A stretch of 64,000 nucleotides of DNA from Lutibacter citreus (GTDB lineage: Bacteria > Bacteroidota > Bacteroidia > Flavobacteriales > Flavobacteriaceae). A program made the position numbers and the translations under genes. The stretch lies in NCBI RefSeq assembly GCF_003260195.1, contig NZ_QEIH01000003.1, positions 434,001-498,000 of the forward strand, in the 5' to 3' direction. The notes below the pieces were generated by a model. The model saw only the letters and a list, made by a program, of their open reading frames with translations. It was not told the DNA's origin and made no database searches. The number at the start of each line of letters is the position of its first letter. Position 1 is the stretch's first letter. Below are positions 4,634 through 38,437 of this stretch, piece by piece.

Positions 4634-6349
4634 ATGGACACATCCAATAATTACCAGCAGTTTAACAACTTAGAAGCAGAGCAATTACCAGTTGCAAAGC
4701 ATAAATTACATAATTGGACTCATTTTGCAGGTCTATATGCCGCTGAGCATGTTGCCGCTACCGAGTTTGTTATTGGAGCCACTTTTGTAGCTTTAGGAGC
4801 AACAACTAAAGATATTATTTTAGGTTTATTAATAGGTAATATTTTAGCTGTTTTAAGCTGGACACTTATTACTTCGCCAATTGCGGTTGACACACGTTTA
4901 AGTTTATACACTTACTTAAATAAAATAGCAGGAGATTCAATGACCAAGCTTTACAATTGGGCTAATGTTATTATTTTCACGGTTATCTCTGCTGCTATGA
5001 TTACGGTATCTGCAACAGCAGTTCGTTTTGCATTTAATATTCCTGCACAACTAAATTGGTATCCAACCAATTTATGGTTTATAGTAATAGTTTTAATTGT
5101 GGGGTCCGTTGTGGTTTCTATAGCCATATACGGTTTTAAAGCAGTCTCAGAGTTTTCTGGAATTTGTGCACCTTGGTTGTTTGTAATGTTTACTTGTGGA
5201 GCCTTTGTATTGTTACCTGCTTTATCTTTAGAGGTGTTAGGAAAACCAATACCAGATGGTTGGAATGATTTTATAACCTTAGGCGACAAATCTATATGGA
5301 CTGGAATTAATAGTAACGGAGAAGCAGGAATTGGATTAACAGAAGTTATTGGTTTTGCTTGGGCTGCAAATACTATTACACATTTTGGCCTTATAGATAT
5401 GGCTTTATTGCGTTTTGCTAAAAAGAAATCATACGGATTAGCTACAAGTACAGGAATGATGTTTGGGCATTATGTTGCTTGGATTTCAGCAGGAATTATG
5501 GGAGCTGGAGCTGCAGTAATTATTGGAAAATCTATTGTTGAACTTGATCCAGGTGATGTTGCTTATTATGCATTAGGTTGGTCTGGATTTGTTATTGTAA
5601 TTGTAGCTGGTTGGACCACTGCCGTTGCTAATCTTTACCGAGCAGGTTTGGCAGCACAAGCTATTTTCAAAAATCATACACGTAAAAAAACTACTATAGT
5701 AGTTGGTTTGGTAACTATGATAGTTGCTTGTTTTCCTTTTGTGTTTTCTCAAATACTTCCGCTTCTAACGTATGCTGGATTACTAGTAGTTCCAGTTGGG
5801 GGTATTGTATTTGCAGAACATCAAATTTTTCCTAGAATTGGGTATACAAGATATTGGGCACAGTATCGTGAATTAACTTTTAGCACTCCTGCAATAGCAT
5901 CTTGGGGTTTAGGACTTATATTCGGTTTTGGTTTAAACGCTTTAAATGTAATGTCTTTCTTTTATCTATTTATACCAACTTGGATATTCACCATAATTAT
6001 CTATACTTTTTTAGCGGGACGTTATGGAGCTAAAAGAAAATATCCTGAAGCAGCAGAAAAAGAAAAATTACGCAATATAAATATTGAAAAATTTCAAGAA
6101 GAACAAGCAAAAGAAGAAACTGTACATGTAAAAGACACTTCGCTTTTTACAAAAGTTTTAAGAAGCATTTCATTACTTGTTTTACTTATTACTATAGCCT
6201 TGGCGTGTAAAGTTTTATTTGGAAGTTCAGATGAAGCTAATTATATAAAAAACCGTGAACTATTTTATCAATATGCATTTATATGTACGTTAACTTATTT
6301 TGTTACTGCATATTGGGCGCTTAAACGTGGAAAAATTCAAAACTCATAA
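4634..6349 (+). CDS. NCS1-like (purine-cytosine permease-type) transporter, predicted mannitol permease
   Basis: A 571-residue integral membrane protein with about 12 hydrophobic segments. The start (HNWTHFAGLYAAEHVAATEFVIGATFVALG) and the helix with SWTLITSPIAVDTRLSLYTYL are like nucleobase-cation symporter-1 proteins, although it is longer than CodB (about 420 residues), with a charged linker near residues 470-500 and two extra C-terminal helices. NCS1 proteins usually carry nucleobases, hydantoins or vitamins. Here the next gene, starting four bases after the stop, is a mannitol dehydrogenase, followed by fructokinase, so mannitol or another polyol is the likely substrate. Some Bacteroidetes are reported to have a predicted mannitol permease before M2DH-FK in place of an ABC importer. 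The substrate is inference. Confidence 0.75.
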   Translation: MDTSNNYQQFNNLEAEQLPVAKHKLHNWTHFAGLYAAEHVAATEFVIGATFVALGATTKDIILGLLIGNILAVLSWTLITSPIAVDTRLSLYTYLNKIAGDSMTKLYNWANVIIFTVISAAMITVSATAVRFAFNIPAQLNWYPTNLWFIVIVLIVGSVVVSIAIYGFKAVSEFSGICAPWLFVMFTCGAFVLLPALSLEVLGKPIPDGWNDFITLGDKSIWTGINSNGEAGIGLTEVIGFAWAANTITHFGLIDMALLRFAKKKSYGLATSTGMMFGHYVAWISAGIMGAGAAVIIGKSIVELDPGDVAYYALGWSGFVIVIVAGWTTAVANLYRAGLAAQAIFKNHTRKKTTIVVGLVTMIVACFPFVFSQILPLLTYAGLLVVPVGGIVFAEHQIFPRIGYTRYWAQYRELTFSTPAIASWGLGLIFGFGLNALNVMSFFYLFIPTWIFTIIIYTFLAGRYGAKRKYPEAAEKEKLRNINIEKFQEEQAKEETVHVKDTSLFTKVLRSISLLVLLITIALACKVLFGSSDEANYIKNRELFYQYAFICTLTYFVTAYWALKRGKIQNS

Positions 6350-6353
6350 TATC

Positions 6354-7847
6354 ATGAAAAATATAATAAACCTTAATCAAAATAATTTGGCTAAAATTGC
6401 CAATCGTATTGCTTGTCCTAAATACAATAGAACTGACATAAAAACAGGAATAGTACATGTTGGTATTGGTGGCTTTCATAGAGCTCACGAAGCTTTTTAT
6501 ACAGATCAATTATTACATGATGAATCCGTTAAAGAATGGGGAATTTGTGGTGTAGCTTTGTTAGATTTTGATACTAAAATTTACAATACACTTAAAGAAC
6601 AAGATGGTCTATACACTTTAATTGTAAAAGAATTAGATGGTTCTTTAACAAAAAGAGTTATTGGTTCTATTGTTGAATATTTATTTGCACCAGAAAATCC
6701 TTCAAAAGTAATTGAAAAAATGGCGAGTCCAGATGTTAAAATTATAACATTAACTATTACTGAAGGTGGTTATAATTATAATGAAGCAACAAGAGCCTTT
6801 GATTTCGAGAACCCTTTAATTCAACATGATTTAGAGCATTCACAAGCACCAAAAACTATTTTTGGATACTTAACCGAAGCGTTAAAATTAAGACAACAAA
6901 GAGGTTTAAAAGGTGTAACTATTCAATCTTGTGATAATATACAAGGTAACGGACATATGGCTAAAAAAATGCTATTGAGTTATGTTGAAAAAGCAGCGCC
7001 AGAATTGGTTTCTTGGATAGAAAAAAATGTGTCGTTTCCAAATAGTATGGTAGATAGAATTACGCCTGCAACATCGCCAACAGATATTTCAAATTTATTA
7101 GAAACATCGGGAATTGAAGATGCTTGGCCAGTAGTTTGTGAACCGTTTAAACAATGGGTTATTGAAGATGATTTTATTGCAGGAAGACCTGCTTGGGAAA
7201 CTGTTGGCGCTCAATTTGTTGAAGATGTAGTTCCGTTTGAAAAAATGAAATTGAGTTTGTTAAATGCCGGACATTCTGTATTAGGTATTTTAGGCGATTT
7301 AATGGGCTACGCAACTATAGATGAGTCGGTTCATAATAATGAAATAAATAGGTTTTTAACAAATTATATGAATATTGAAGTAACACCAACTTTAGCTGGT
7401 TTAGAAGGTGTTAACTTAGATGAATACAAACAATCTTTATTACAACGATTTGGAAATATTTATATAAAAGATCAAATAGACAGAATTTGTTCAGAAAGTT
7501 CAGCCAAATTTCCAATATTTATTTTGCCAACGGTAAATAAACAATTAGAAAAAAACGGACCTGTTGAATTTGCATCATTTGTAGTCGCTGCTTGGGCAAT
7601 TTATAGCTTAGGAAAAAATGAAAATGGAAAACCATTACTTATTAAAGATGCTATGAAAGCTATTTTAAATGAAAAAGCAATCTTGGCAAAAGAAAATCCA
7701 GAAGCGTTTTTAGAAATAGCATCCATTTTTGGAAAATTAAATGATTCTAAAATATTTGTAAATGCATATACAACAGCATATAATAATATTGTTAAATATG
7801 GAGTTGAAAAATGTGTTATAGCTATTAATAATAAGGTTATTAAATAA
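6354..7847 (+). CDS. Mannitol 2-dehydrogenase (PSLDR family)
   Basis: Oxidises D-mannitol to D-fructose with NAD+. I use the ATG at 6354, directly after the permease stop (497 residues, normal for the family); the longer frame from 6300 overlaps the permease gene by 50 bases and adds 18 unlikely residues. Motifs of polyol-specific long-chain dehydrogenases are present: the N-terminal VGIGGFHRAHEAFYTDQLL nucleotide-binding region, TITEGGYNYN, and the catalytic KLSLLNAGH with the Lys, Asn and His of the family. Fructuronate reductase and mannonate or altronate dehydrogenases share the fold, but the downstream fructokinase makes mannitol 2-dehydrogenase the best reading. The product feeds the next gene. 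Confidence 0.88.
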   Translation: MKNIINLNQNNLAKIANRIACPKYNRTDIKTGIVHVGIGGFHRAHEAFYTDQLLHDESVKEWGICGVALLDFDTKIYNTLKEQDGLYTLIVKELDGSLTKRVIGSIVEYLFAPENPSKVIEKMASPDVKIITLTITEGGYNYNEATRAFDFENPLIQHDLEHSQAPKTIFGYLTEALKLRQQRGLKGVTIQSCDNIQGNGHMAKKMLLSYVEKAAPELVSWIEKNVSFPNSMVDRITPATSPTDISNLLETSGIEDAWPVVCEPFKQWVIEDDFIAGRPAWETVGAQFVEDVVPFEKMKLSLLNAGHSVLGILGDLMGYATIDESVHNNEINRFLTNYMNIEVTPTLAGLEGVNLDEYKQSLLQRFGNIYIKDQIDRICSESSAKFPIFILPTVNKQLEKNGPVEFASFVVAAWAIYSLGKNENGKPLLIKDAMKAILNEKAILAKENPEAFLEIASIFGKLNDSKIFVNAYTTAYNNIVKYGVEKCVIAINNKVIK

Positions 7848-7854
7848 TTATTTT

Positions 7855-8745
7855 ATGAAAAATTTAGTTTGTTTTGGTGAGGTTTTATGGGATGTATTTC
7901 CAAATCATAAAAAAATTGGAGGTGCACCTTTAAACGTAGCTTTAAGATTGCAATCTTTAGGTAATAATGTTTCTATAATTACAAGAATAGGAGATGATTC
8001 CGAAGGAATGGAAATAAAAGAATTTATTAAAGAACGAGGTGTACAAATAGAAAACATTCAAATTGATGCAACATTAAAAACAGGTGAAGTAGCTGTTGTG
8101 TTGAATGAAAAAGGTTCCGCAACTTACACTATAAATTCTCCTAGAGCTTGGGATAATATCCAATTAACAGAGAGCGCTAAAGAAATTATTAAAAAATCTG
8201 ATGCTTTTATATTTGGAAGTTTAATTGCTAGAAATGATGTTTCAAAAAATACGTTGTATCAGCTTTTAAAAATTGCGAAATACAAAATTTTCGACATTAA
8301 TTTAAGAGCACCTCATTACACCTTAGAAGTACTGAATTACTTAATGAATGAAGCCGATTTTATTAAGTTTAATGATGATGAGATTTTTGAAATAGCAGAA
8401 GAGTTAAATTTTAAAAATGAATCTTTAGAGGAAACAATTAAATTTATTGCAACGCAAACAAACACAAAATCTATTTGCGTTACAAAAGGTCGTCACGGAG
8501 CAATATTGTACTGTAATAATACCTTTTATTGCAATAATGGTTATAAAATAGTTGTTGTGGATACAGTAGGAGCAGGAGATTCTTTTTTAGCTTCATTAAC
8601 AAATAAATTATTAAAAGGAACTTCGCCTCAAGAAGCATTAAATTTTGCGTGTGCCGTTGGAGCAATTGTAGCAAGTAAAGAAGGTGCAAACCCTATAATA
8701 ACTGAAGAGGCTATTGAAAATTTTATTTTTACAGCCAAAAAATAA
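7855..8745 (+). CDS. PfkB-family fructokinase
   Basis: Phosphorylates fructose, here produced from mannitol, to fructose 6-phosphate. The 296 residues show the PfkB features: N-terminal CFGEVLWDVFP with GGAPLNVALRL (sugar-binding and dimer lid), and the C-terminal signature DTVGAGDSFLASLTNKLL with the catalytic Asp of GAGD. It starts seven bases after the dehydrogenase stop, so the two are cotranscribed. The M2DH-fructokinase order matches the mannitol operon described in Zobellia galactanivorans. A hairpin follows at 8758-8790. Confidence 0.9.
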   Translation: MKNLVCFGEVLWDVFPNHKKIGGAPLNVALRLQSLGNNVSIITRIGDDSEGMEIKEFIKERGVQIENIQIDATLKTGEVAVVLNEKGSATYTINSPRAWDNIQLTESAKEIIKKSDAFIFGSLIARNDVSKNTLYQLLKIAKYKIFDINLRAPHYTLEVLNYLMNEADFIKFNDDEIFEIAEELNFKNESLEETIKFIATQTNTKSICVTKGRHGAILYCNNTFYCNNGYKIVVVDTVGAGDSFLASLTNKLLKGTSPQEALNFACAVGAIVASKEGANPIITEEAIENFIFTAKK

Positions 8746-21710: not shown

Positions 21711-24700
21711 ATGAAACACAATTACTTAAGTAAACATTTATTTTTATTTGTTTTAATTCTTTTTATGAGTATAAATGAAAATTTATTTGCTCAAACAGTT
21801 TTTATTAATGAAATTCATTATGACAATGTTAATGGAGATGAAGGTGAGGCAATTGAAATTGCCGGTCCTGCAGGAACAGATCTTACAAATTGGAGTATTG
21901 TTTTATATAATGGAGGAAATGGTGCAGCATACAAAACTACATCATTATCAGGTTCAATTCCAGATTTAGGGGATGGGTATGGAGTGGTTGCAGTAAATTA
22001 CCCTGTAAATGGAATTCAAAATGGTGCACCAGATGCAATAGCTTTAGTAAATAACGCTACAGTTATTCAATTTATAAGTTATGAAGGCTCTTTAACTGCT
22101 GTTAATGGACCTGCAATTGGTATGACAAGTACAGATATTGGAGTTTCTGAAACTGGCACTACATTAATTGGTAATTCAATCCAGTTAATTGGATCAGGTT
22201 TATTATATACTGATTTTACCTGGCAATCACCTTCACTTAGTAATTTTGGGAGTATTAATTTTGGGCAAAGTTTTTCAGGTTCTATAGTTATTGATACAGA
22301 AGCACCAACCATACCTACAAATTTATCAACTTCAAACATTACACAAAGCACAGTAGATTTATCGTGGGATGCTTCAACAGATAATGTTGGAGTAGTTGCT
22401 TATCAAATTTTTGAAGGAGTAAATCAAGTTGGAACAACAAATAATACTATATTTCAAATAACAGGACTAACTGATAATACGATATATAGTTTATCCGTGA
22501 AAGCGGTAGATGCAACAGGAAATGTTTCTTTAGCTAGTGCGAGTGTTGAAATAACAACATTAGAAAACACAACTCCACCAATAACAGCTGGAGCGGTATT
22601 TATTAATGAAATTCATTATGATAATGCAGGAAGTGATAGTGGTGAAGGTGTTGAAATTGCTGGTCCGGCAGGAACAGATTTAACAGGTTGGACAATTGTA
22701 CAATATAACGGAAATGGAGGAGCTTCTTATGGAACTACAAATTTATCAGGAGTAATTTTAGATCAATTAAATGGATATGGTACAATAGCTGTTTCTATAA
22801 GTGGCTTACAAAACGGATCTCCTGATGGGGTAGCTTTAGTAGATAATAACGGTACAACTGTTCAATTTTTAAGTTATGAAGGAACTTTTACAGCTACAAA
22901 TGGTCCGGCATCTGGACTGGAAAGTACAGACATTGGTATTTCAGAATCAAGTTCTGAAGCAGTTGGTAATTCACTTCAATTAACAGGTAAAGGAAAAGTA
23001 TATAACGATTTTACATGGCAAATAGTAGAAAATACATTTGGTGCTATAAACACAGATCAAAAATTTGGAGATTTGGTATTTATCAATGAAATGCACTATG
23101 ATAATGCAAGTACGGATACAGGAGAAGGTGTTGAAATTGCAGGTTATTCGGGAACAGATTTAACAGATTGGAGTATTATATTATACAATGGAAGTAACGG
23201 AACATATTATGGAACAATTTCATTATCAGGTATAATCCCTGAACAAATGAATGGATATGGAACCCTTTCTTTTTCTAAAAGTGGTTTACAAAACGGTTCA
23301 CCTGATGGTTTAGCATTAGTAAATAATAATGGTGTTGTAATTCAGTTTTTAAGTTATGAAGGAACTATTACAGCTACAAACGGTGCTGCATCTGGTATTG
23401 AAAGTACAGATATAGGCGTTGTAGAAACAGGTAGTACAATTGTAGGGACTTCACTCCAATTAATTGGTACAGGTTTAATATATTCAGATTTTACTTGGGA
23501 AACTGCTGATAATACTTTTGGAGCAGTTAACACTATGCAAATATTTGCTGATCCTAGCTCTGTAACACCAGAAATAGAATTATCAACAATTGCTGAAGCA
23601 CGTGTTGTTGCCGATGAAACTACAGTAAAAATAACAGGAGTCTTAACAGTGTCCGATCAATTTGCTGGTTCTGCCTATGTTCAGGATGAAACTGGAGCGG
23701 TTGCCGTTTTTGATCCTTTAGTGCATGGAGATGGTTTATTTCAAATTGGAGATGTAATTACAATTACAGGAGTTAAAAGTTCTTATAATGATCAAATTCA
23801 AATTAGCCCAGTGAGTTTAGTTGAGCTTAATTTAGAATCAACTTTAACTATTGAGCCAGTAACTATTACATTAAATGAAATGGTAAATCACCCTTCTGAA
23901 TTGGTACGAATTTTAGATCCAAATTTTCCAAAACCAGGTGATATTATGTTTGGTAATGCTAATTATGTGTTAACAGATGTAAGCGGAACAGGTGAATTAA
24001 GAATTGATTATGATGTTGAAGAAATTGTAGGTTTAGGGCAACCTGAGACTTGTAGTGAGCTTATAGGTGTTGTAGGAAGATATTTTGAAACGTATCAATT
24101 ATTACCTAGACAAAAATCAGATATTTCTTGTGCCGGACCTTATGAACAATCTGGAAGTGATTTATCAATTTCTAAAGATAAAACATTAGATATAGTTACA
24201 TGGAATATAGAATGGTTTGGTGATGAAGCTAATTCACCAGCAGCTGGAAATCCTGATTCAGATCAAATTCAAAAAGAAAGTGTTAAAAATGTACTTCAGC
24301 AATTAAATGCAGATATCTATGGTGTAGAAGAAGTGTCGGACGATGCATTATTTGCTCAAATGGTAAGTGAAATGCCAGGATATGATTTTGTGCTTTCAGA
24401 AGCAACTTCATACCCAAATGATACGGAAGGTGTTAAACAAAAACTAGGTTTTATTTATAACACAAATACTGTTGAAGTTGTTTCAACTAAAGTATTATTA
24501 GAATCTATACATCCTTATTACAATGGAGGTGATGAAAGTGCTTTAACAGATTTTCCAGATCCTGATAAATCACGTTTTTATGCAAGTGGTAGATTACCTT
24601 TTATGTTAACTGCGAATGTAACAATTGATGGTACTACGGAACAAATAAATGTGATAGACCTTCATTCAAGAGCAAATACAGGTGATAATTTGTTAAAATA

Positions 24701-25961
24701 TAATATGCGTAAGTATGATATTGAAATGTTAAAAGACTCATTAGATGTATATTATCCAGATGCTAATGTAATTATGATAGGGGATTATAATGACGATGTA
24801 GATGAAACAGTAGCTAATGTTGCTCCAATAACAGATTCAACATTTAAGGCTTTTGTTGATGATTCAGAAAATTACAATGTGTTAACTGGTATTTTAAGTG
24901 AAGAAGGCTTTAGATCTTATGTTTCTTATGAAAATATGATTGATCATATTATGGTTACAAATGAACTTTCAGATAAATATATAAATGAGTCTGCAAGGGT
25001 ACATTACGAATTTTATAGCAGTACTTATACACGAACAGCTTCAGATCATTTCCCTGTTTCTGCAAGATTACAGCTAAAATTATTAACTCTTGACGAAAGT
25101 ATTTCAACAGATGTAACTTGTAATGGAGATTCTAATGGAACAGCTACAGTTAAAGTTTCTGGAGGAATTACGCCTTATACTTATGAATGGAGTGATGGCC
25201 AAAATACTTCAACAGCAATAGGTTTTTCTGCTGGTATTTATAATGTAACTGTAACTGATGGATTAGGAGCAACAATAACTCAGGAATTTTCTATAAATGA
25301 ACCAGATGCTTTGGAAGTATTAACCTCTGAAAATAGTACGGTTTATCTTGGTTATGCTCCAGAGGAATGTACAACACTTTCTGTAACTGAAACTTTAGGA
25401 GGAACAGCACCTTATACTTACATATGGAGTACAGGTGAAACTAATGAAGTATTAGAAGTTTGCCCAGAAGAAAATACAACTTATACGGTAACTGTAACAG
25501 ATGCTAATGGATGCACTGCAACAGCAGATATTAATATAACCGTTGAAAATATAACTTGTGGCAATAATTCTAAAAACCCAAAAGTAGAAATTTGTCATAA
25601 TGGAAAATCAATTTGTGTATCTAAGAATTCAGTTCAGGCTCATTTAAATCATGGAGATAGCTTAGGATCTTGTTATTCTTCAAAAACCTCTGAGGAAAGT
25701 TTAATTATAGCGAACTTTAAAACATACCCAAATCCGATTAGAAATTTTATGAATATTAGTTTTGACAGCAATCAAAATTTAAGCTCTGATTTACTTGTAT
25801 TCGATTTTAGAGGTCAACTAGTAAACCAATCTGCGCTGCAAATTAATGAAGGTAAAACAGAATCTAAAGTGAATTTAAGTAGTTTAGGAAGTGGTTTTTA
25901 CTTTGTTAAAATTTTAGTTAATGGAGAAGTTAAAGAGGTTAAATTCATATATAAAGAATAA
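21711..25961 (+). CDS. Secreted modular nuclease: three lamin-tail domains, EEP nuclease, T9SS sorting domain
   Basis: A 1416-residue extracellular DNase-type protein. Order: signal peptide (1-28, FAQ), lamin-tail-like domain 1 (28-190), fibronectin III domain (196-285), lamin-tail domains 2 (296-452) and 3 (454-612), an OB-fold-like segment (about 620-800), an endonuclease/exonuclease/phosphatase domain (823-1122), two SprB-type repeats (about 1130-1275) and a C-terminal type IX sorting domain (YPNPIRNFMNISFD...GFYFVKI). EEP motifs present: TWNIEWFG, GVEEV, IDLHSRAN, MIGDYNDD and SDHFPV. It would be secreted through T9SS and held at the surface or released, digesting DNA or dinucleotides for nutrients, or as a weapon. 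A strong terminator follows. Confidence 0.88.
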   Translation: MKHNYLSKHLFLFVLILFMSINENLFAQTVFINEIHYDNVNGDEGEAIEIAGPAGTDLTNWSIVLYNGGNGAAYKTTSLSGSIPDLGDGYGVVAVNYPVNGIQNGAPDAIALVNNATVIQFISYEGSLTAVNGPAIGMTSTDIGVSETGTTLIGNSIQLIGSGLLYTDFTWQSPSLSNFGSINFGQSFSGSIVIDTEAPTIPTNLSTSNITQSTVDLSWDASTDNVGVVAYQIFEGVNQVGTTNNTIFQITGLTDNTIYSLSVKAVDATGNVSLASASVEITTLENTTPPITAGAVFINEIHYDNAGSDSGEGVEIAGPAGTDLTGWTIVQYNGNGGASYGTTNLSGVILDQLNGYGTIAVSISGLQNGSPDGVALVDNNGTTVQFLSYEGTFTATNGPASGLESTDIGISESSSEAVGNSLQLTGKGKVYNDFTWQIVENTFGAINTDQKFGDLVFINEMHYDNASTDTGEGVEIAGYSGTDLTDWSIILYNGSNGTYYGTISLSGIIPEQMNGYGTLSFSKSGLQNGSPDGLALVNNNGVVIQFLSYEGTITATNGAASGIESTDIGVVETGSTIVGTSLQLIGTGLIYSDFTWETADNTFGAVNTMQIFADPSSVTPEIELSTIAEARVVADETTVKITGVLTVSDQFAGSAYVQDETGAVAVFDPLVHGDGLFQIGDVITITGVKSSYNDQIQISPVSLVELNLESTLTIEPVTITLNEMVNHPSELVRILDPNFPKPGDIMFGNANYVLTDVSGTGELRIDYDVEEIVGLGQPETCSELIGVVGRYFETYQLLPRQKSDISCAGPYEQSGSDLSISKDKTLDIVTWNIEWFGDEANSPAAGNPDSDQIQKESVKNVLQQLNADIYGVEEVSDDALFAQMVSEMPGYDFVLSEATSYPNDTEGVKQKLGFIYNTNTVEVVSTKVLLESIHPYYNGGDESALTDFPDPDKSRFYASGRLPFMLTANVTIDGTTEQINVIDLHSRANTGDNLLKYNMRKYDIEMLKDSLDVYYPDANVIMIGDYNDDVDETVANVAPITDSTFKAFVDDSENYNVLTGILSEEGFRSYVSYENMIDHIMVTNELSDKYINESARVHYEFYSSTYTRTASDHFPVSARLQLKLLTLDESISTDVTCNGDSNGTATVKVSGGITPYTYEWSDGQNTSTAIGFSAGIYNVTVTDGLGATITQEFSINEPDALEVLTSENSTVYLGYAPEECTTLSVTETLGGTAPYTYIWSTGETNEVLEVCPEENTTYTVTVTDANGCTATADINITVENITCGNNSKNPKVEICHNGKSICVSKNSVQAHLNHGDSLGSCYSSKTSEESLIIANFKTYPNPIRNFMNISFDSNQNLSSDLLVFDFRGQLVNQSALQINEGKTESKVNLSSLGSGFYFVKILVNGEVKEVKFIYKE

Positions 25962-29337: not shown

Positions 29338-29733
29338 ATGAAAAAAATAGAGGTTGTAGCAGCAATACTTTGCTTTGATGATAAAATTTTATGTACTCAA
29401 AGAGCAAAAAATAAATTACCATATATTTCTGAAAAATTTGAATTCCCTGGAGGTAAGATCGAGCAAGGAGAATCAAAAAAAGAAGCTTTAAAAAGGGAGT
29501 TAATGGAAGAATTAAATATCACTCCAATTATTGAAAATGAATTTCTTACAGTAATCCATAATTATCCAGATTTTGAATTGACAATGCATAGTTTTATTTG
29601 TAAAATTGATAAAGTAAACATAAAACTTAATGAACATATTTCATCTATTTGGCTTTCAAAACAAGATTTGATGAAACTCGATTGGGCTGCTGCCGATTTA
29701 CCTATTGTAAAAAAACTTATGAGCAATGAGTGA
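29338..29733 (+). CDS. MutT-type Nudix nucleoside-triphosphate pyrophosphohydrolase
   Basis: A 131-residue Nudix hydrolase with an intact box, GGKIEQGESKKEALKRELMEELNI (G-x5-E-x7-REL-x-EE), so it should be active. Close relatives hydrolyse 8-oxo-dGTP, dCTP or other (d)NTPs to the monophosphate. Its last 8 bases overlap the start of the helicase gene (ATGAGTGA), so translation is coupled and the two products probably work together, for example by changing nucleotide pools during attack or damage while the helicase-nuclease acts on DNA. The specific substrate is not determinable. Confidence 0.88.
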   Translation: MKKIEVVAAILCFDDKILCTQRAKNKLPYISEKFEFPGGKIEQGESKKEALKRELMEELNITPIIENEFLTVIHNYPDFELTMHSFICKIDKVNIKLNEHISSIWLSKQDLMKLDWAAADLPIVKKLMSNE

Positions 29734-32700
29734 TGGTTTACTAAATCAATTTCAAGAAAGTTTGCACACCGGGTTTATTGATAAAATACTAAAGTCTGAG
29801 GTTCTTTACCAACCTAAATTACTCGTTAATAAAAAAAAGCCTAAAACGAAGGTTTTGTCTACAATTCTTCATGAATTACAAAACTGTAATGAGTTTTATA
29901 TTTCAGTTGCATTTGTTACCACAAGTGGAGTTGCAACAATAATAAACACTTTAAAACACCTCGAAAGTAGAGGGATTAAAGGGAAAATTCTTGTTTCTCA
30001 ATATTTGAACTTTACACAACCTGAGGCTTTAAAAAAACTATTACGATTTAAGAATATAGATTTAAGAATTTTAACTTCTGAAAATTCACATTCTAAAGGT
30101 TATATTTTTAAAACAACATCTCATTATAATTTAATAATAGGTAGTAGTAACCTTACTGCATCGGCCTTAGCAACAAATAAAGAGTGGAATTTAAAGGTTT
30201 CGGCACTTAATGAAAGTGGTTTAGTTGATAAGGTATTAAGTGAATTTAATGCAGACTTTAAAAAAGGAGTTGTAGTTACAGAAAAATATATTTCTGATTA
30301 TGAAATAATTTATAATAAGCAGCATATACTCAATCAAGAAAATTCATTTCAAAATTTGGTAAATGATTTCGTTGATATTATTCCAAATGAAATGCAAATA
30401 GCTGCTTTAAAAAACCTTAATAAACTAAGACTTGAAAATAAAAATAAAGCGCTTTTAATATCAGCAACTGGAACTGGAAAAACCTATTTATCAGCTTTTG
30501 ATGCTAAAGCTTTTCAACCAAAAAAGTTACTATTTGTTGTTCATAGATTAACCATAGCAAAAAATGCTTTGAAAACGTTTCAAAATATTTTTGGAATAGA
30601 AACATCTATGGGCTTGTATTCTGGGCAGCATAGAGAATTAGAAAAAGATTTTTTATTTTCAACTATTCAAACTATTTCAAAGCAAAATCATTTAGATCAA
30701 TTTGATAAACATTATTTTGATTATATTATAATTGACGAATCTCATCGGTCTGGAGCAGAATCATATCAACGTTTAGTCGCTTATTTTGAGCCAAAATTTT
30801 TATTGGGTATGACAGCTACACCTGAGAGAACAGATGGAAATGATATTTTTAGCATTTTTGATCATAATATTGCTTATGAAATCAGGTTGAATCAAGCAAT
30901 GGAAGAGGATATGTTGAGTCAGTTCCATTATTATGGCGTAACAGATATCTCTTTAAATAATCAAGTACTTGAAGACACGAGTGATTTTAATTTATTAACG
31001 TCTAATGAACGTATTGAGCATATAATTAATCGTGCAGAATTTTATGGTAGTGATAATGGAATTATTCGAGGTTTGGCATTTTGTTCTCGTGTAGAAGAAG
31101 CAAAAACTCTTTCAGAATTATTTAATCAGCGAGGTTATAGAACAATTACACTTAGTGGAGCAAGTTCTGAAGAAGAAAGAAAAGATGCAATTGATAGATT
31201 GGAGTCTGATAGTTTATCGCAAAAGCTAGATTATATTTTTACAGTTGATATTTTTAATGAAGGTGTTGATATCCCAAAAGTGAATCAAATATTAATGATT
31301 AGACCTACTGAATCTGCTATTATTTTTATTCAACAATTAGGTCGAGGATTGCGAAAAGCCGAAGGAAAAGGCTACTTAACCGTAATTGATTTTATTGGGA
31401 ATTATAAAAATAACTATTTAATTCCTATAGCTTTATATGGAGACAAATCTTACAATAAAGATTCTTTAAGAAGAATCATTTCACAAGGAAGTAGAACCAT
31501 TCCTGGAGCATCAACAATAAATTTTGATGAGATTACAAAAGAGCGCATTTTTAAATCCATAGACTCTGCAAATTTAAGATTGTTGACAGATTTAAGGAAT
31601 GACTATAAACTTTTGAAATATAAATTAGGAAGGTTTCCTTTAATGATGGATTTTATGGAACATGGAGAACGAGACCCTTTTTCGTTTGTTGAATATTCTA
31701 AATCCTATTATAACTTTCTAAATAAAATAGAAACGGACCTAAACTTCACGTTAAATAAAAAAGAAATAACCTTTTTAGAGTATTTTTCTAAAGAAATTAA
31801 TAATTCAAAAAGGGTAGAAGAAAGCATCATTCTTAAATATCTAATTTTAGAAGGAAGTATTGAGATTTCTAAATTAAAAGACATTATATCTGCAAGTTAT
31901 GATTATATTCCAACAGAAGAAACTATTCAATCTTGTATAGTAAATCTTAACTTTAATTTTATAAAAAAAGATTATAGAAATGTTTATAGAGCTGGTGATT
32001 TAATACAATGTGATGTTGATTTAAAGGAAATTTTATCTAATTTGAATTTTAAAAATTTCCTGATGGATTCGGTGGAATATTCTATTAAGAGTTTTACCGA
32101 TTTATATGATAAAAACAATTATAAAGATGGTTTAATTAGATATAACAAGTATAGTAGAAAGGATGTTTGTAGGTTAATCAATTGGCCAAAAGATTTAAGC
32201 AGTACAGTTTATGGATATCGTACAAATAATGAAATTACACCATGTTTTGTAACCTATCATAAATCATCTGATATAGATGGTGACATTAAATACAACGATC
32301 ATTTTATAACACCGTCTTTATTTGCTTGGGAATCACGTTCTAACAGGAAATTAGAAAGTCAAGAAATTCAAAAAGTAATAGCTTCTAAACGAATATTACT
32401 TTTTGTAAAAAAAGAAGATGGAGAAGGAACTGATTTTTATTATTTGGGAGATGCATCTATAGTTAAAGATTCTGTTAAGCAAGATAAAATGGAGGATTCA
32501 GGTTCTCCTGTGGTTCATTTTACATTTGAGCTCGATGAACCTGTTACCGAAACACTTTATAATTATTTAACGAAAAACGATGTTTTAGAAAACAACAAAA
32601 CGCTACAAAAAGATGAGATTACTTTAATAAATGAAGAACCTGAAGTTGTGATAACTAAGGAAAATGAAATTCCATTTTATAATTTTTATGCTGCTGCAGG

Positions 32701-33100
32701 TTCATTTAGTGAAATGCAATCAGATAAAGATTTTGAGCTAATATCAGTTCCTGAAAAATATAAGTCTAAAGAAGATTATTTTGCCTGCAAAATTAAAGGA
32801 GAATCTATGAATAAAGTTATTCCTAACAATTCTATTTGTATTTTCAAAAAGTATACAGGAGGTTCTAGGAATGGCAAAATTGTTTTGATTGAAAATCAAG
32901 ATATTCAAGATCCTGATTTTAATTCCTCATTTACTGTAAAAACATATTCTAGTGAAAAAATAGTTACAGATGAAGGTTGGCAGCATGTATCAATAGTACT
33001 AAGACCAAATTCTTATGACTCAAAATTTGAAGATATTATTATAGACGAGTATAATGGTTCTAATATGAATGTTGTCGGTGAATTTGTTGCTGTGTTATAA
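29726..33100 (+). CDS. PLD nuclease-SF2 helicase-DUF3427-like protein with C-terminal LexA-type autoprotease
   Basis: A 1124-residue cytoplasmic multidomain protein. PLD-type phosphodiesterase domain (about residues 40-185) with SH122-x-K124 and GSSN142LT, one HKD motif. SF2 helicase (about 222-570): Walker A ATGTGKT 247-253, DESH 337-340, TAT 363-365, QQLGRGLRK 537-544. A DUF3427-like region fills about 570-960. At the end is an S24 module: YAAAGSF with the Ala991-Gly992 bond, KGES1027MNKVI with the nucleophile and FTVK1072 with the general base. The Gly992-Ser1027 distance of 35 is as in UmuD, so self-cleavage is plausible. Coupled to the Nudix gene. Likely role: DNA defence or damage response. 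Domains are clear; function is inference. Confidence 0.85.
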   Translation: MSDGLLNQFQESLHTGFIDKILKSEVLYQPKLLVNKKKPKTKVLSTILHELQNCNEFYISVAFVTTSGVATIINTLKHLESRGIKGKILVSQYLNFTQPEALKKLLRFKNIDLRILTSENSHSKGYIFKTTSHYNLIIGSSNLTASALATNKEWNLKVSALNESGLVDKVLSEFNADFKKGVVVTEKYISDYEIIYNKQHILNQENSFQNLVNDFVDIIPNEMQIAALKNLNKLRLENKNKALLISATGTGKTYLSAFDAKAFQPKKLLFVVHRLTIAKNALKTFQNIFGIETSMGLYSGQHRELEKDFLFSTIQTISKQNHLDQFDKHYFDYIIIDESHRSGAESYQRLVAYFEPKFLLGMTATPERTDGNDIFSIFDHNIAYEIRLNQAMEEDMLSQFHYYGVTDISLNNQVLEDTSDFNLLTSNERIEHIINRAEFYGSDNGIIRGLAFCSRVEEAKTLSELFNQRGYRTITLSGASSEEERKDAIDRLESDSLSQKLDYIFTVDIFNEGVDIPKVNQILMIRPTESAIIFIQQLGRGLRKAEGKGYLTVIDFIGNYKNNYLIPIALYGDKSYNKDSLRRIISQGSRTIPGASTINFDEITKERIFKSIDSANLRLLTDLRNDYKLLKYKLGRFPLMMDFMEHGERDPFSFVEYSKSYYNFLNKIETDLNFTLNKKEITFLEYFSKEINNSKRVEESIILKYLILEGSIEISKLKDIISASYDYIPTEETIQSCIVNLNFNFIKKDYRNVYRAGDLIQCDVDLKEILSNLNFKNFLMDSVEYSIKSFTDLYDKNNYKDGLIRYNKYSRKDVCRLINWPKDLSSTVYGYRTNNEITPCFVTYHKSSDIDGDIKYNDHFITPSLFAWESRSNRKLESQEIQKVIASKRILLFVKKEDGEGTDFYYLGDASIVKDSVKQDKMEDSGSPVVHFTFELDEPVTETLYNYLTKNDVLENNKTLQKDEITLINEEPEVVITKENEIPFYNFYAAAGSFSEMQSDKDFELISVPEKYKSKEDYFACKIKGESMNKVIPNNSICIFKKYTGGSRNGKIVLIENQDIQDPDFNSSFTVKTYSSEKIVTDEGWQHVSIVLRPNSYDSKFEDIIIDEYNGSNMNVVGEFVAVL

Positions 33101-33574: not shown

Positions 33575-33988
33575 ATGCCTTTTAAAGTTTGTACTACATG
33601 TTCTGGAACTGGTCAAATAGGAAATGCTTTTTCCTCTGAAATAACATATTCTATTTGTTATAAATGTGGAGGGAGTGGGCAAATAATGTATTCTGAACCT
33701 ATACCTAAAACTCAACAAAGAAATAAACGTCAAACAAGAGGAACACATCAAGTAAAGCAATCACCAAACACCACAAAATCAGAAAATAAAGGCTTACATA
33801 CTATTTTAGTAATAGGAGGAGGACTTATTGGTTATTTTCTTTCAATAATGTACATAACAAAAAGTTTAATAATAGCAGGAATAATTGGAATTATTACAGC
33901 TCTGATAATTTATAAGTGGGGACAGAAATTATTAATAATTGTTACCATAGCTGGATTTATCTATTTCTTTTTTATAAAGGATAAATAA
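33575..33988 (+). CDS. Small membrane protein with a DnaJ-type zinc finger
   Basis: 137 residues. The N-terminus has two CxxCxGxG repeats (CTTCSGTG and CYKCGGSG, residues 6-38), the zinc-binding unit of DnaJ proteins, but there is no J domain. A basic, Gln/Thr-rich linker (45-72) leads to two or three hydrophobic helices (about 75-135) ending with FFFIKDK. It may tether a redox- or chaperone-like zinc finger to the inner membrane. I know no named family. It stands alone between repeat-bearing spacers, which suggests an accessory gene. Confidence 0.6.
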   Translation: MPFKVCTTCSGTGQIGNAFSSEITYSICYKCGGSGQIMYSEPIPKTQQRNKRQTRGTHQVKQSPNTTKSENKGLHTILVIGGGLIGYFLSIMYITKSLIIAGIIGIITALIIYKWGQKLLIIVTIAGFIYFFFIKDK

Positions 33989-34259: not shown

Positions 34260-34859
34260 ATGGCATTATTAAACTGTTTTGATTGTAAAAAAGAAATATC
34301 TATAACTGCTATTAGCTGTCCTGAATGTGGTTTTGAACTAGCAAATTATTTTAAAACAAATTTATCCAATAAAACAATTGGAGTTCCATTATCCCCAATT
34401 TTGTACTGGGAAAATTGGCATTTGGGCTATTTTATGAAACGGATAGGAAAACCGACAAATAAAGCGTGGGTAAATAAGGGTGATCCAATTTACGTCTTTG
34501 GTGATAGGTTTTGTATTCTTTCACCTATATCTGGAAGACTCGTGAATTATAACAAAAAAACAAGTAGAAGTTATGATATAAAATATTTCTTAGAGTGCAA
34601 GGAGTTTATAGAAATTCAACCACTTATTAATTCAGATTTACACGAAGAAATAGTTTATTCTAAAATGAGGGATTACCTAATTGATTTGGACAATCAATTA
34701 GCGTTAAAAAGAACATTTTGGATAAGATTTGAAGAAGCTTGTTTTGGAAAACAGAGTTACCCTTTGTACACTATTGATTGTAAGCGAAAATTTAATTCTA
34801 AAGAGGCTTTGTTCGATACTATCAATGACCTTGACAATGTTAAATGTATTACTTTTTAA
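34260..34859 (+). CDS. Hypothetical protein with N-terminal zinc ribbon
   Basis: 199 residues. Residues 6-24 form a C-x2-C...C-x2-C zinc ribbon (CFDCKKEISITAISCPECG). The middle, GDPIYVFGDRFCILSPISGRLV, resembles the half-motif of a lipoyl/biotinyl-type barrel-sandwich domain, but no modified Lys is evident. The C-terminal half is helical. There is no signal peptide or membrane helix. Function unknown; it is a lone gene, with a palindrome and repeat copy C starting directly after its stop. Confidence 0.55.
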   Translation: MALLNCFDCKKEISITAISCPECGFELANYFKTNLSNKTIGVPLSPILYWENWHLGYFMKRIGKPTNKAWVNKGDPIYVFGDRFCILSPISGRLVNYNKKTSRSYDIKYFLECKEFIEIQPLINSDLHEEIVYSKMRDYLIDLDNQLALKRTFWIRFEEACFGKQSYPLYTIDCKRKFNSKEALFDTINDLDNVKCITF

Positions 34860-37837: not shown

Positions 37838-38437
37838 TTGTTAAAGAAAACTCAACAATTACCCCAAGAACAATTTATAGATACAGATTATTTCATTTAC
37901 TGTTTAGAAGCTGTTTATGATATAGAAACGGACAAGGTTACCGAAGCACAAAAAAGATTAGAACATTTGACCATGCAATATGGAGTAGCCAGTATTTATA
38001 AAACATGCGACACCATTGAAGGTTTAGAAACTAGCTTAAATGCATTGGTCTTGGATGATCATAATTTTAAGGACTATGAAATAATCTATTTTGTTATAAC
38101 AGGTGAAGCAAATACTATTTGTTTAAATAACTACTACTATAGTTTGCAAGAAATTGCAGAAATTTTTGAAGGAAGATTAGAAGGTAAGATTTTACATTTT
38201 TCAAATGCAAAAGTTCTAGATTTAGACGAAGAAGAAGCACAATATTTTTTGGATATTACTGGTGCAAAAGCTGTTTCTGGGTACGGTAATGAATGCAATG
38301 GAATAACTAGTTCAAATCTTGATATGGCATTTTTTAATTTATTTAACGAAAATGAGAATATGTTAGATGTTGTAGAAGAGTTGCATCAAAGACATTACAA
38401 AGTATGTAAACTACTTGATTTTAGATTGTATTATTAA
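37838..38437 (+). CDS. Hypothetical protein, possible degenerate caspase-like fold, TTG start
   Basis: 199 residues. The only upstream start possible is TTG at 37838, because an in-frame TGA lies two codons before it and the first ATG would remove 40 residues of good coding sequence. The alternating strands and helices recall a short caspase/CHAT-like domain: DYEIIYFVITGEANTICL, GKILHFSNAKVLDL and AKAVSGYGNE...SSNLDMAFFNLF correspond in order to the His strand, the Cys strand and the final GY region. The catalytic His is replaced by Thr and the Cys by Asn, so a protease function is unlikely. The similarity is by eye and weak. Single gene. Confidence 0.6.
   Translation: MLKKTQQLPQEQFIDTDYFIYCLEAVYDIETDKVTEAQKRLEHLTMQYGVASIYKTCDTIEGLETSLNALVLDDHNFKDYEIIYFVITGEANTICLNNYYYSLQEIAEIFEGRLEGKILHFSNAKVLDLDEEEAQYFLDITGAKAVSGYGNECNGITSSNLDMAFFNLFNENENMLDVVEELHQRHYKVCKLLDFRLYY

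Follow-up and report, generated by a model that had tools for sequence, protein, structure and literature searches.

A LexA-type S24 peptidase module on a SauUSI-like restriction enzyme of Lutibacter citreus, with a possible role as a fuse

A 64,000-nucleotide stretch of Lutibacter citreus DNA (Bacteroidota; RefSeq assembly GCF_003260195.1, contig NZ_QEIH01000003.1, positions 434,001 to 498,000; hereafter the window) encodes at 29338 to 33100 a two-gene operon made up of a Nudix hydrolase and an 1124-residue protein, which appears to be a SauUSI-type type IV restriction enzyme ending in a peptidase module of the S24 (LexA/UmuD) type. The preliminary description of this locus, in which one protein of 1124 residues joins a PLD nuclease, a superfamily 2 (SF2) helicase, a DUF3427 region and an S24 domain, is borne out by Pfam. 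Its suggestion of an undescribed defence system is not, since the body belongs to the SauUSI family (mREase_IV in PADLOC) and the Nudix protein matches the PADLOC model PDC-S07. Body and Nudix protein are therefore known to databases, and what is new is the S24 module on a SauUSI-type body behind a disordered linker. A putative anti-phage role of the locus is suggested by the resemblance to these PADLOC hidden Markov models. The Pfam scan covered five open reading frames between 29338 and 38437, and the PADLOC scan the Nudix and 1124-residue genes; the features of the operon, with the evidence for each, are as follows.

29338 to 29733, plus strand: Nudix hydrolase, NudG/3gwy-like, 131 amino acids, likely a 5-methyl/5-hydroxymethyl-dCTP pyrophosphatase (open reading frame, Pfam, PADLOC PDC-S07 at E 8.2e-46)
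Within gene 29338 to 29733, plus strand: Nudix box from residue 39, and Asp120 at the NudG-type position (alignment)
29726 to 29733, plus strand: gene overlap of 8 bases, probable translational coupling (reading-frame positions; the same -8 spacing in many tail-bearing relatives)
29726 to 33100, plus strand: predicted type IV restriction enzyme of the SauUSI type, 1124 amino acids, with an S24 tail at its C-terminus (open reading frame, Pfam, PADLOC, alignment with SauUSI)
29726 to 30295, plus strand: PLD-type nuclease domain, residues 1-190 (Pfam, alignment; domain border after passages of PMC7913695)
30296 to 31576, plus strand: SF2 helicase-like ATPase / double-stranded DNA translocase, residues 191-617 (Pfam, alignment, same source)
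31577 to 32125, plus strand: coupler, the N-terminal part of DUF3427, residues 618-800 (Pfam, alignment, same source)
32126 to 32572, plus strand: SRA-type target recognition domain, residues 801-949 (alignment, same source)
32573 to 32668, plus strand: variable linker, residues 950-981 (low model confidence at 952-978, low identity)
32669 to 33097, plus strand: S24 (LexA/UmuD-type) peptidase module, residues 982-1124 (Pfam, tail model, fold search, alignment)
32696 to 32701, plus strand: predicted scissile bond Ala991-Gly992 (aligned tails)
32804 to 32806, plus strand: predicted catalytic Ser1027 (aligned tails)
32939 to 32941, plus strand: predicted catalytic Lys1072 (aligned tails)

By alignment and structure model, residues 982-1124 are a genuine S24 module with an intact predicted catalytic site. 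In a fold search with the AlphaFold model of this tail (predicted local distance difference test, pLDDT, 77.9; predicted template-modelling score, pTM, 0.75), the first 38 PDB matches are all LexA, lambda CI or UmuD (best 3k2z, E 8.6e-6), while comparing a profile of the tail with PDB sequences gave no match at E 0.1. Ala991-Gly992, Ser1027 and Lys1072 align with S24 catalytic positions. Across 46 aligned tails (45 of them different, including the broken copy L152 and the fragment L162, and excluding the viral-contig proteins L239-L242 and a Halomonas plasmid copy, L243), no tail lacks the Gly, Ser or Lys (46/46 for each), so their presence is not chance, and the Ala is kept in 45; the remaining tail, L174, has Cys, and Cys-Gly is given as the cleavage site of UmuD in passages of PMC8565304. 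The distance from Gly to Ser is 35 residues in the window protein and ranges over 33-35 among the 32 tails for which it was determined. The preliminary description had named these same residues, this spacing and the S24 module, and had listed three outcomes as contrary to itself (no S24 fold, unconserved residues, a Nudix gene absent from most related loci), none of which was found. Model confidence falls below a pLDDT of 50 at residues 991-1001 in the tail model, which start at the scissile Ala, and at linker residues 952-978 in the full-length model, whose pTM is 0.43 and in which the tail is not confidently docked on the body (weak evidence).

The tail is also under purifying selection. In the three close pairs of relatives for which both values could be computed, the ratio of nonsynonymous to synonymous rates (dN/dS) is 0.092, 0.184 and 0.095 for the tail against 0.095, 0.073 and 0.082 for the body, with 0.38, 0.64 and 0.10 for the linker; in two further pairs dS of body or tail is saturated, leaving no dN/dS comparison. 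Within the protein, conservation is lowest in the linker (0-34% identity to five relatives, against 57-72% for the tail). The explanation that the tail is a chance fusion or an assembly artefact, for which we found nothing in favour, is refuted by this selection and by the occurrence of the tail in many separate assemblies of Bacteroidota, Balneolota and Pseudomonadota (on Schlafen-type proteins in the last), and its probability is close to nil.

The body ahead of the tail is, judged by homology, a member of the SauUSI family, with its activity predicted. Pfam lists PLDc_2, ResIII with Helicase_C, DUF3427 (residues 686-949, 253.9 bits) and Peptidase_S24 (988-1074, 29.7 bits, cut-off 23.3) in the 1124-residue protein, and no repressor-type DNA-binding or helix-turn-helix (HTH) domain. 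An alignment with SauUSI (PDB 7clg), the ATP-driven type IV restriction enzyme of S. aureus, spans residues 4-949 (E 1e-227), the PADLOC model mREase_IV spans 5-949 (E 2.5e-236), and 7clg is the first fold match of the structure model. The order of PLD nuclease, SF2 ATPase, coupler and SRA domain is that of the SauUSI type, and His122, Lys124, Asn142 and Glu153 of the nuclease domain are invariant (alignment A2). Of the six SRA residues named for SauUSI, four are identical at the same numbers (Tyr831, Phe841, Asp858 and Trp868), with Val for Ile842 and Tyr for Met829. The SauUSI C-terminal target recognition domain is an SRA domain reading 5-methylcytosine (5mC), joined by the coupler to the ATPase that translocates on double-stranded DNA, as described in passages of PMC7913695, and the enzyme cuts DNA containing 5mC or 5-hydroxymethylcytosine (5hmC) (PMC3874153). 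An undescribed helicase-nuclease is thus rejected as an account of residues 4-949. A separate observation concerns an apparent swap of SRA domains: that of the window (32126-32572) has 71% identity with those of L035 and L036 and only 39-41% with those of L037, L033 and L041, although nuclease, ATPase and S24 tail remain at 57-72%; the SRA domain of L037 shares 71% with both L033 and L041.

A DUF3427 match occurs in 47 of 395 genomes of Bacteroidota, the window's phylum; among these genomes are nine full SauUSI-type loci, six of them with the tail, the window included. For a wider comparison, 86 loci were considered (the window, five further loci and 80 from a contig scan that kept the best 80 of 471 relatives, a sample which leans to close kin), and the 80 with a near-complete body were retained; six with fewer than 800 body residues in the best reading frame were set aside (L088, L091, L097, L112, L118 and L131), and copies were omitted (L033, equal to L088; L035 to L054; L036 to L053; L038 to L039). 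Tails are present in 27 of these homologues and absent from 53. Those tail-bearing loci that carry a taxon label are from Bacteroidota or Balneolota, and tail-less loci come also from Bacillota, Mycoplasmatota, Pseudomonadota, Cyanobacteriota and archaea (many of them metagenome-assembled genomes). On a quick tree of the bodies, supported by SH-aLRT values alone, tail presence changes three times, compared with a mean of 22.5 when shuffled (0 of 500 shuffles as low). SauUSI tails are monophyletic in 1% of bootstrap trees, and the tails of a smaller SauUSI clade (L071, L073 and L076) stand apart from the main SauUSI tail group. The simplest history, and probably the right one, has two gains and a single loss, in L066. 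At that locus no reading frame of at least 50 amino acids matches the tail, and no S24-like frame was seen by eye in the first 300 codons of the three same-strand frames 3' of the gene, part of a 1450-base stretch. No S24 tail was found in the searched regions of the divergent DUF3427 group. Within the window's own genus the enzyme occurs in one of 38 genomes (29 of the 38 near-complete), which is the window's own, and in three other genomes there is nothing closer than a divergent DUF3427 protein (31-35% identity).

The same tail is found on other nucleases. A search with the tail alone matched in 18 of the 395 Bacteroidota genomes: six are SauUSI-type proteins, nine are GIY-YIG nucleases with Schlafen (SLFN) group 3 helicases, and three are HsdR-type ends. 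Among the last, L160 (checked by Pfam) and its homologue L161 are full HsdR proteins, while L162 is a fragment at a contig end, placed by its tail. For the GIY-YIG proteins, L159 and L082 are over the Pfam cut-off, L171 is below it, and the other members are placed by similarity. In the phylum of Vibrio intestinalis 4 of 349 genomes have the tail, two on GIY-YIG-SLFN proteins and two on SLFN helicases with a PD-(D/E)XK-like N-terminal region, which is our own reading; the one Pfam match there is a weak one to NERD, found in the relative L174. In a search run without a positive control, none of 249 genomes from the phylum that includes Bacilliculturomica (Bacillota) had the tail. The Halomonas plasmid carries a PD-type SLFN copy with a tail, split across two frames. 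On viral contigs, an HsdR (L240) keeps the Ala-Gly, Ser and Lys, L242 is by eye an HTH-S24 regulator and not a restriction enzyme, and two type III Res subunits (L239, 3277-6435; L241, 2896-6432) adjoin N6/N4 methylases and keep Ser and Lys, with Thr at the position of the scissile Gly. Pfam sees S24 in L239 and lists none in L241; no further type III Res tails were found in viral contigs and 198 Bacteroidota genomes. As judged from these alignments, the S24 module is a portable add-on gained by several kinds of ATP-driven restriction-type nuclease. Each tailed type combines a nuclease with an NTPase motor, as would be expected of a damage limiter.

Several of these loci have further features of their own. 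The L152 copy (5796-7982) is a decayed GIY-YIG-SLFN-S24 gene, split into frames of 481 and 203 amino acids. L082 (9589-15452) has a tail-less SauUSI and Nudix pair followed directly by a MazG and GIY-YIG-SLFN-S24 pair, and contig C17 of genome G223 (L157, L038, L039) combines a GIY-YIG-SLFN-S24 gene, a divergent DUF3427 protein and a tail-less SauUSI/Nudix pair. A PtuB-like HNH gene (PADLOC E 4.9e-81) stands directly 5' of the HsdR-S24 gene in L160 (5327-9570), and a Fic gene lies 3' of the L239 Res. The window's own genome, G000, has two more SLFN group 3 helicases, at C7:4404-5588 (in an 813-residue frame) and C33:76519-77574 (in a 609-residue frame); no S24 tail was found on the former.

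The upstream Nudix gene is, by its distribution, a partner of the nuclease and not of the tail. In 27 of 27 tail-bearing and 43 of 53 tail-less loci, a same-strand Nudix gene is located -120 to +300 bases upstream, and a Nudix gene also adjoins four of nine divergent DUF3427 loci (L043-L051). The coupling proposed in the preliminary description therefore stands insofar as most related loci have the gene (70 of 80), and falls as a tie to the S24 tail; as a candidate partner of the tail the Nudix protein is rejected. Six positions of the Nudix box were checked, and 70 of 70 partner genes keep them, in keeping with the catalytically intact gene described at first; the 8-base overlap is also as described there. 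The best PDB match is B. fragilis 3gwy (Q5LBB1), which is identical to the window Nudix protein at 64 of 129 aligned residues (about 50%, by our own count of the HMMER match line); it is followed by 5x1x, 3hhj, NudG (2rrk) and MutT (1mut). Asp120, at what we take to be the base-reading position, is present in 70 of 70 partners and matches the Ala-Asp-Ile-Pro of NudG where MutT has Ala-Asn-Glu-Pro.

Passages of PMC5158307 report assays of Q5LBB1 on 74 compounds, with kcat/Km values of 6.7e6 for 5-Me-CTP, 4.8e6 for 5-Me-dCTP and 4.4e6 for 5-MeOH-dCTP (read by us as 5-hydroxymethyl-dCTP). The value drops about 50-fold for 5-OH-dCTP, canonical NTPs have much lower ones, and the errors that the authors give are large. 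The term 'restriction' occurs there only in one reference title, and 3gwy is still listed as undetermined in PMC5389931. These substrates correspond to the cytosine modifications cut by SauUSI. They give the Nudix protein a likely substrate, and its pairing with the nuclease would give it a physiological reason; the window Nudix protein is likely a 5-methyl/5-hydroxymethyl-dCTP pyrophosphatase. Two points tell against this assignment: the window Nudix protein does not reach the 156-bit cut-off of the NudG equivalog (PRK10546), and for NudG there is also genetic evidence for 2-OH-dATP (PMC5158307). Similar NCBIfam scores for PRK08999, NudG and MutT (83.8, 79.3 and 76.2 bits) would equally suit a general MutT-type cleaner of 8-oxo-dGTP, or a hitch-hiker, unlinked to cytosine modification. 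However, the gene adjoins the nuclease in 70 of 80 loci, has Asp and not the Asn of MutT at the aligned position throughout, and has as its closest solved relative an enzyme that prefers 5-substituted cytidine triphosphates; because the Q5LBB1 assays favour 5-methyl- and 5-hydroxymethyl-dCTP, we consider this alternative improbable. The model PDC-S07 appears in a table for S. thermophilus in part of PMC11514479.

Schlafen-type nucleases have a comparable neighbour. A MazG-like gene adjoins 11 of 11 intact S24-bearing GIY-YIG-SLFN loci (as a 65-residue frame in L170) as well as the broken L152, the single S24-free GIY-YIG locus (L203), three of three S24-bearing PD-type SLFN loci (downstream in L173) and five of seven S24-free PD-type loci, as found with a profile built from five of these same partner genes. 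Human DCTPP1 is a MazG-type enzyme according to part of PMC4491611, and is named as a 5-methyl-dCTP hydrolase in part of PMC10742078.

What the tail does may be related to the danger that the enzyme poses to its own cell. RecA-stimulated self-cleavage is the known trigger of S24 modules, and we tentatively read the window protein as a safety-engineered restriction enzyme, in which cleavage of the tail, triggered by RecA, is followed by degradation of the ClpXP type; we would put the whole chain somewhat below an even chance. By homology to SauUSI, the SRA domain would bind DNA containing 5mC or 5hmC and switch on the ATPase, and after translocation the PLD nuclease would cut. As a first safeguard, the co-translated Nudix protein would destroy 5-methyl- and 5-hydroxymethyl-dCTP and so keep host DNA free of target bases. 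As a second, when host DNA is attacked or damaged, the S24 tail would dock on the resulting RecA filaments on single-stranded DNA (ssDNA) and cut itself at Ala991-Gly992, which would free the C-terminal 133 residues (a length given correctly, by position, in the preliminary description) and leave a nuclease ending in ...NFYAAA. This end resembles the host ssrA tag (the tmRNA tag is GEDNYALAA) and might deliver the nuclease to ClpXP or a similar protease, amounting to restriction alleviation within one protein.

The residues next to the predicted cleavage site fit a product made for degradation: Ala-Ala occupies P2-P1 in 44 of 46 tails. Cleaved LexA ends in ...VAA. LexA fragments are reportedly ClpXP substrates after cleavage, going by the title of a work that PMC4231737 cites. 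In a control set of 31 other S24 proteins, Ala-Ala occurs in 17 (15 of the 16 sorted as LexA-like and two of the 15 others); this set, the best 30 of more than 150 S24 matches plus L002, leans towards LexA-like proteins, was sorted by inspecting N-termini (for L217, the site alone) and had its cleavage sites placed by motif search, with an odd spacing in L226. Type I enzymes are known to undergo ClpXP-dependent restriction alleviation, as passages of PMC4231737 and PMC12707154 describe. The host encodes an HTH-S24 regulator that by eye is like the CI-type Bacteroidetes LexA described in part of PMC8565304.

Several observations count against a fail-safe of this kind. Ala-Ala may merely reflect protease preference or LexA-type descent. 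Since tail-less SauUSI is active, cleavage alone would not stop the body, and switching off needs the degron step; for type I alleviation, the available part of PMC4231737 reports that the degron was not found. It also argues that alleviation of EcoKI acts on each translocating complex singly and not via the general SOS response, so that the parallel to the window enzyme is one of outcome only. The 250 bases ahead of the window operon contain no Bacteroidetes SOS box (CTAA-N5-TTAG with at most one mismatch, or GGA-N5-TCC exact), and neither do those of 24 other loci of 27, with one-mismatch matches at L070 and L085; transcriptional SOS control of the window operon thus finds no support. A single origin of SauUSI tails is compatible with the well-supported branches alone, and L066 has apparently lost its tail with the body intact. 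The Thr in place of Gly in L239 and L241 indicates that self-cleavage is not the universal or sole use of the module. For the window protein, we infer self-cleavage, RecA contact and degradation alike.

Cleavage might instead switch the enzyme on, if the tail kept the nuclease inactive or misassembled until RecA filaments on phage or damaged DNA triggered its removal. UmuD is activated by such self-cleavage, and the product here, residues 1-991, would be a complete SauUSI-like body, of a kind that in SauUSI works without a tail. Against this, restriction must set in as soon as DNA enters, the exposed Ala-Ala end is like that of products that undergo degradation, and the disordered linker and undocked tail of the full-length model also count, weakly, in the same direction; we regard an activating role as unlikely. 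A non-proteolytic role, in which the tail is a module for dimerisation or for docking on RecA or ssDNA that recruits the enzyme, with self-cleavage vestigial or unused, seems to us less probable still. The S24 C-terminal domains of LexA, CI and UmuD do dimerise, and the two type III Res tails have Ser and Lys without the scissile Gly, but the invariance of Gly, Ser and Lys in the 46 other tails would be superfluous for mere docking. Of the three, switching off is the reading we favour.

A wider proposal, which we hold more doubtfully than the chain for the window enzyme, is that the S24 tail serves ATP-driven restriction nucleases in general as a mobile fuse, added to type IV (SauUSI), GIY-YIG- and PD-(D/E)XK-Schlafen and type I (HsdR) enzymes (and, in non-cleavable form, to type III Res), that it ties how long they last or how active they are to the RecA filament at the protein level, and that together with a pyrophosphohydrolase (Nudix for SauUSI, MazG-like for the putatively modification-reading Schlafen types) it makes up a three-part safety design. 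Translocating nucleases, and type IV enzymes without a matching methylase, endanger their own cell, and the tail may be a fuse that prevents DNA-cutting defence enzymes from destroying it; a self-cleaving tail that senses RecA would answer how a restriction motor learns that it is cutting the wrong DNA. If this is true, self-inflicted breaks would shut off restriction (or phage ssDNA would turn it on) within minutes and without transcription, and LexA-type signalling would extend from gene regulation to the direct control of effector enzymes. The pairing of a 5mC/5hmC nuclease with a 5-methyl/5-hydroxymethyl-dCTP hydrolase is a separate idea, independent of tail cleavage. A portable module and a matched nucleotide-cleaning partner are parts that could become more. 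Among the matches listed from open-licence literature, no title or abstract opening has S24 on a restriction enzyme, which is no proof of its absence from print; S24 is not mentioned in the texts of PMC7913695, PMC3874153, PMC7159879, PMC12707154 and PMC12839542, and the SauUSI mechanism paper (PMC7913695) does not mention SOS, alleviation, protease or peptidase.

Elsewhere in the window, 3' of the operon, lie two small open reading frames whose zinc-ribbon or DnaJ-type cysteine matches are weak and fall short of the Pfam cut-off (33575-33988 and 34260-34859) and a DUF6642 gene (37838-38437). At 21711-25961 the window encodes a putative secreted protein of 1416 residues; judged by eye, it begins with three segments similar to one another, and its middle part is endonuclease/exonuclease-like.

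With SauUSI the window enzyme has in common the PLD nuclease, SF2 translocase, coupler and SRA domain over residues 4-949; SauUSI has 953 residues and no S24 tail, and the modified-cytosine specificity of the window enzyme is predicted. The Nudix protein shares the Ala-Asp-x-Pro and YPDFE stretches with Q5LBB1 and NudG, with an activity that has been assayed for Q5LBB1 and a substrate that is predicted for the window protein; its likeness to PDC-S07, a PADLOC candidate, is by model match. In the alleviation of EcoKI by ClpXP acting on HsdR, as passages of PMC4231737 and PMC12707154 describe it, the proposed outcome is the same, a restriction motor destroyed when it threatens the host chromosome; those passages do not mention an S24 domain for EcoKI, whereas in the window enzyme trigger and degron would both be built in. 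Finally, the LexA, UmuD and CI autoproteases share with the window tail its fold, Ala-Gly site, Ser-Lys dyad and spacing, but their module sits on a small repressor or polymerase subunit, whereas that of the window ends a 950-residue restriction motor.

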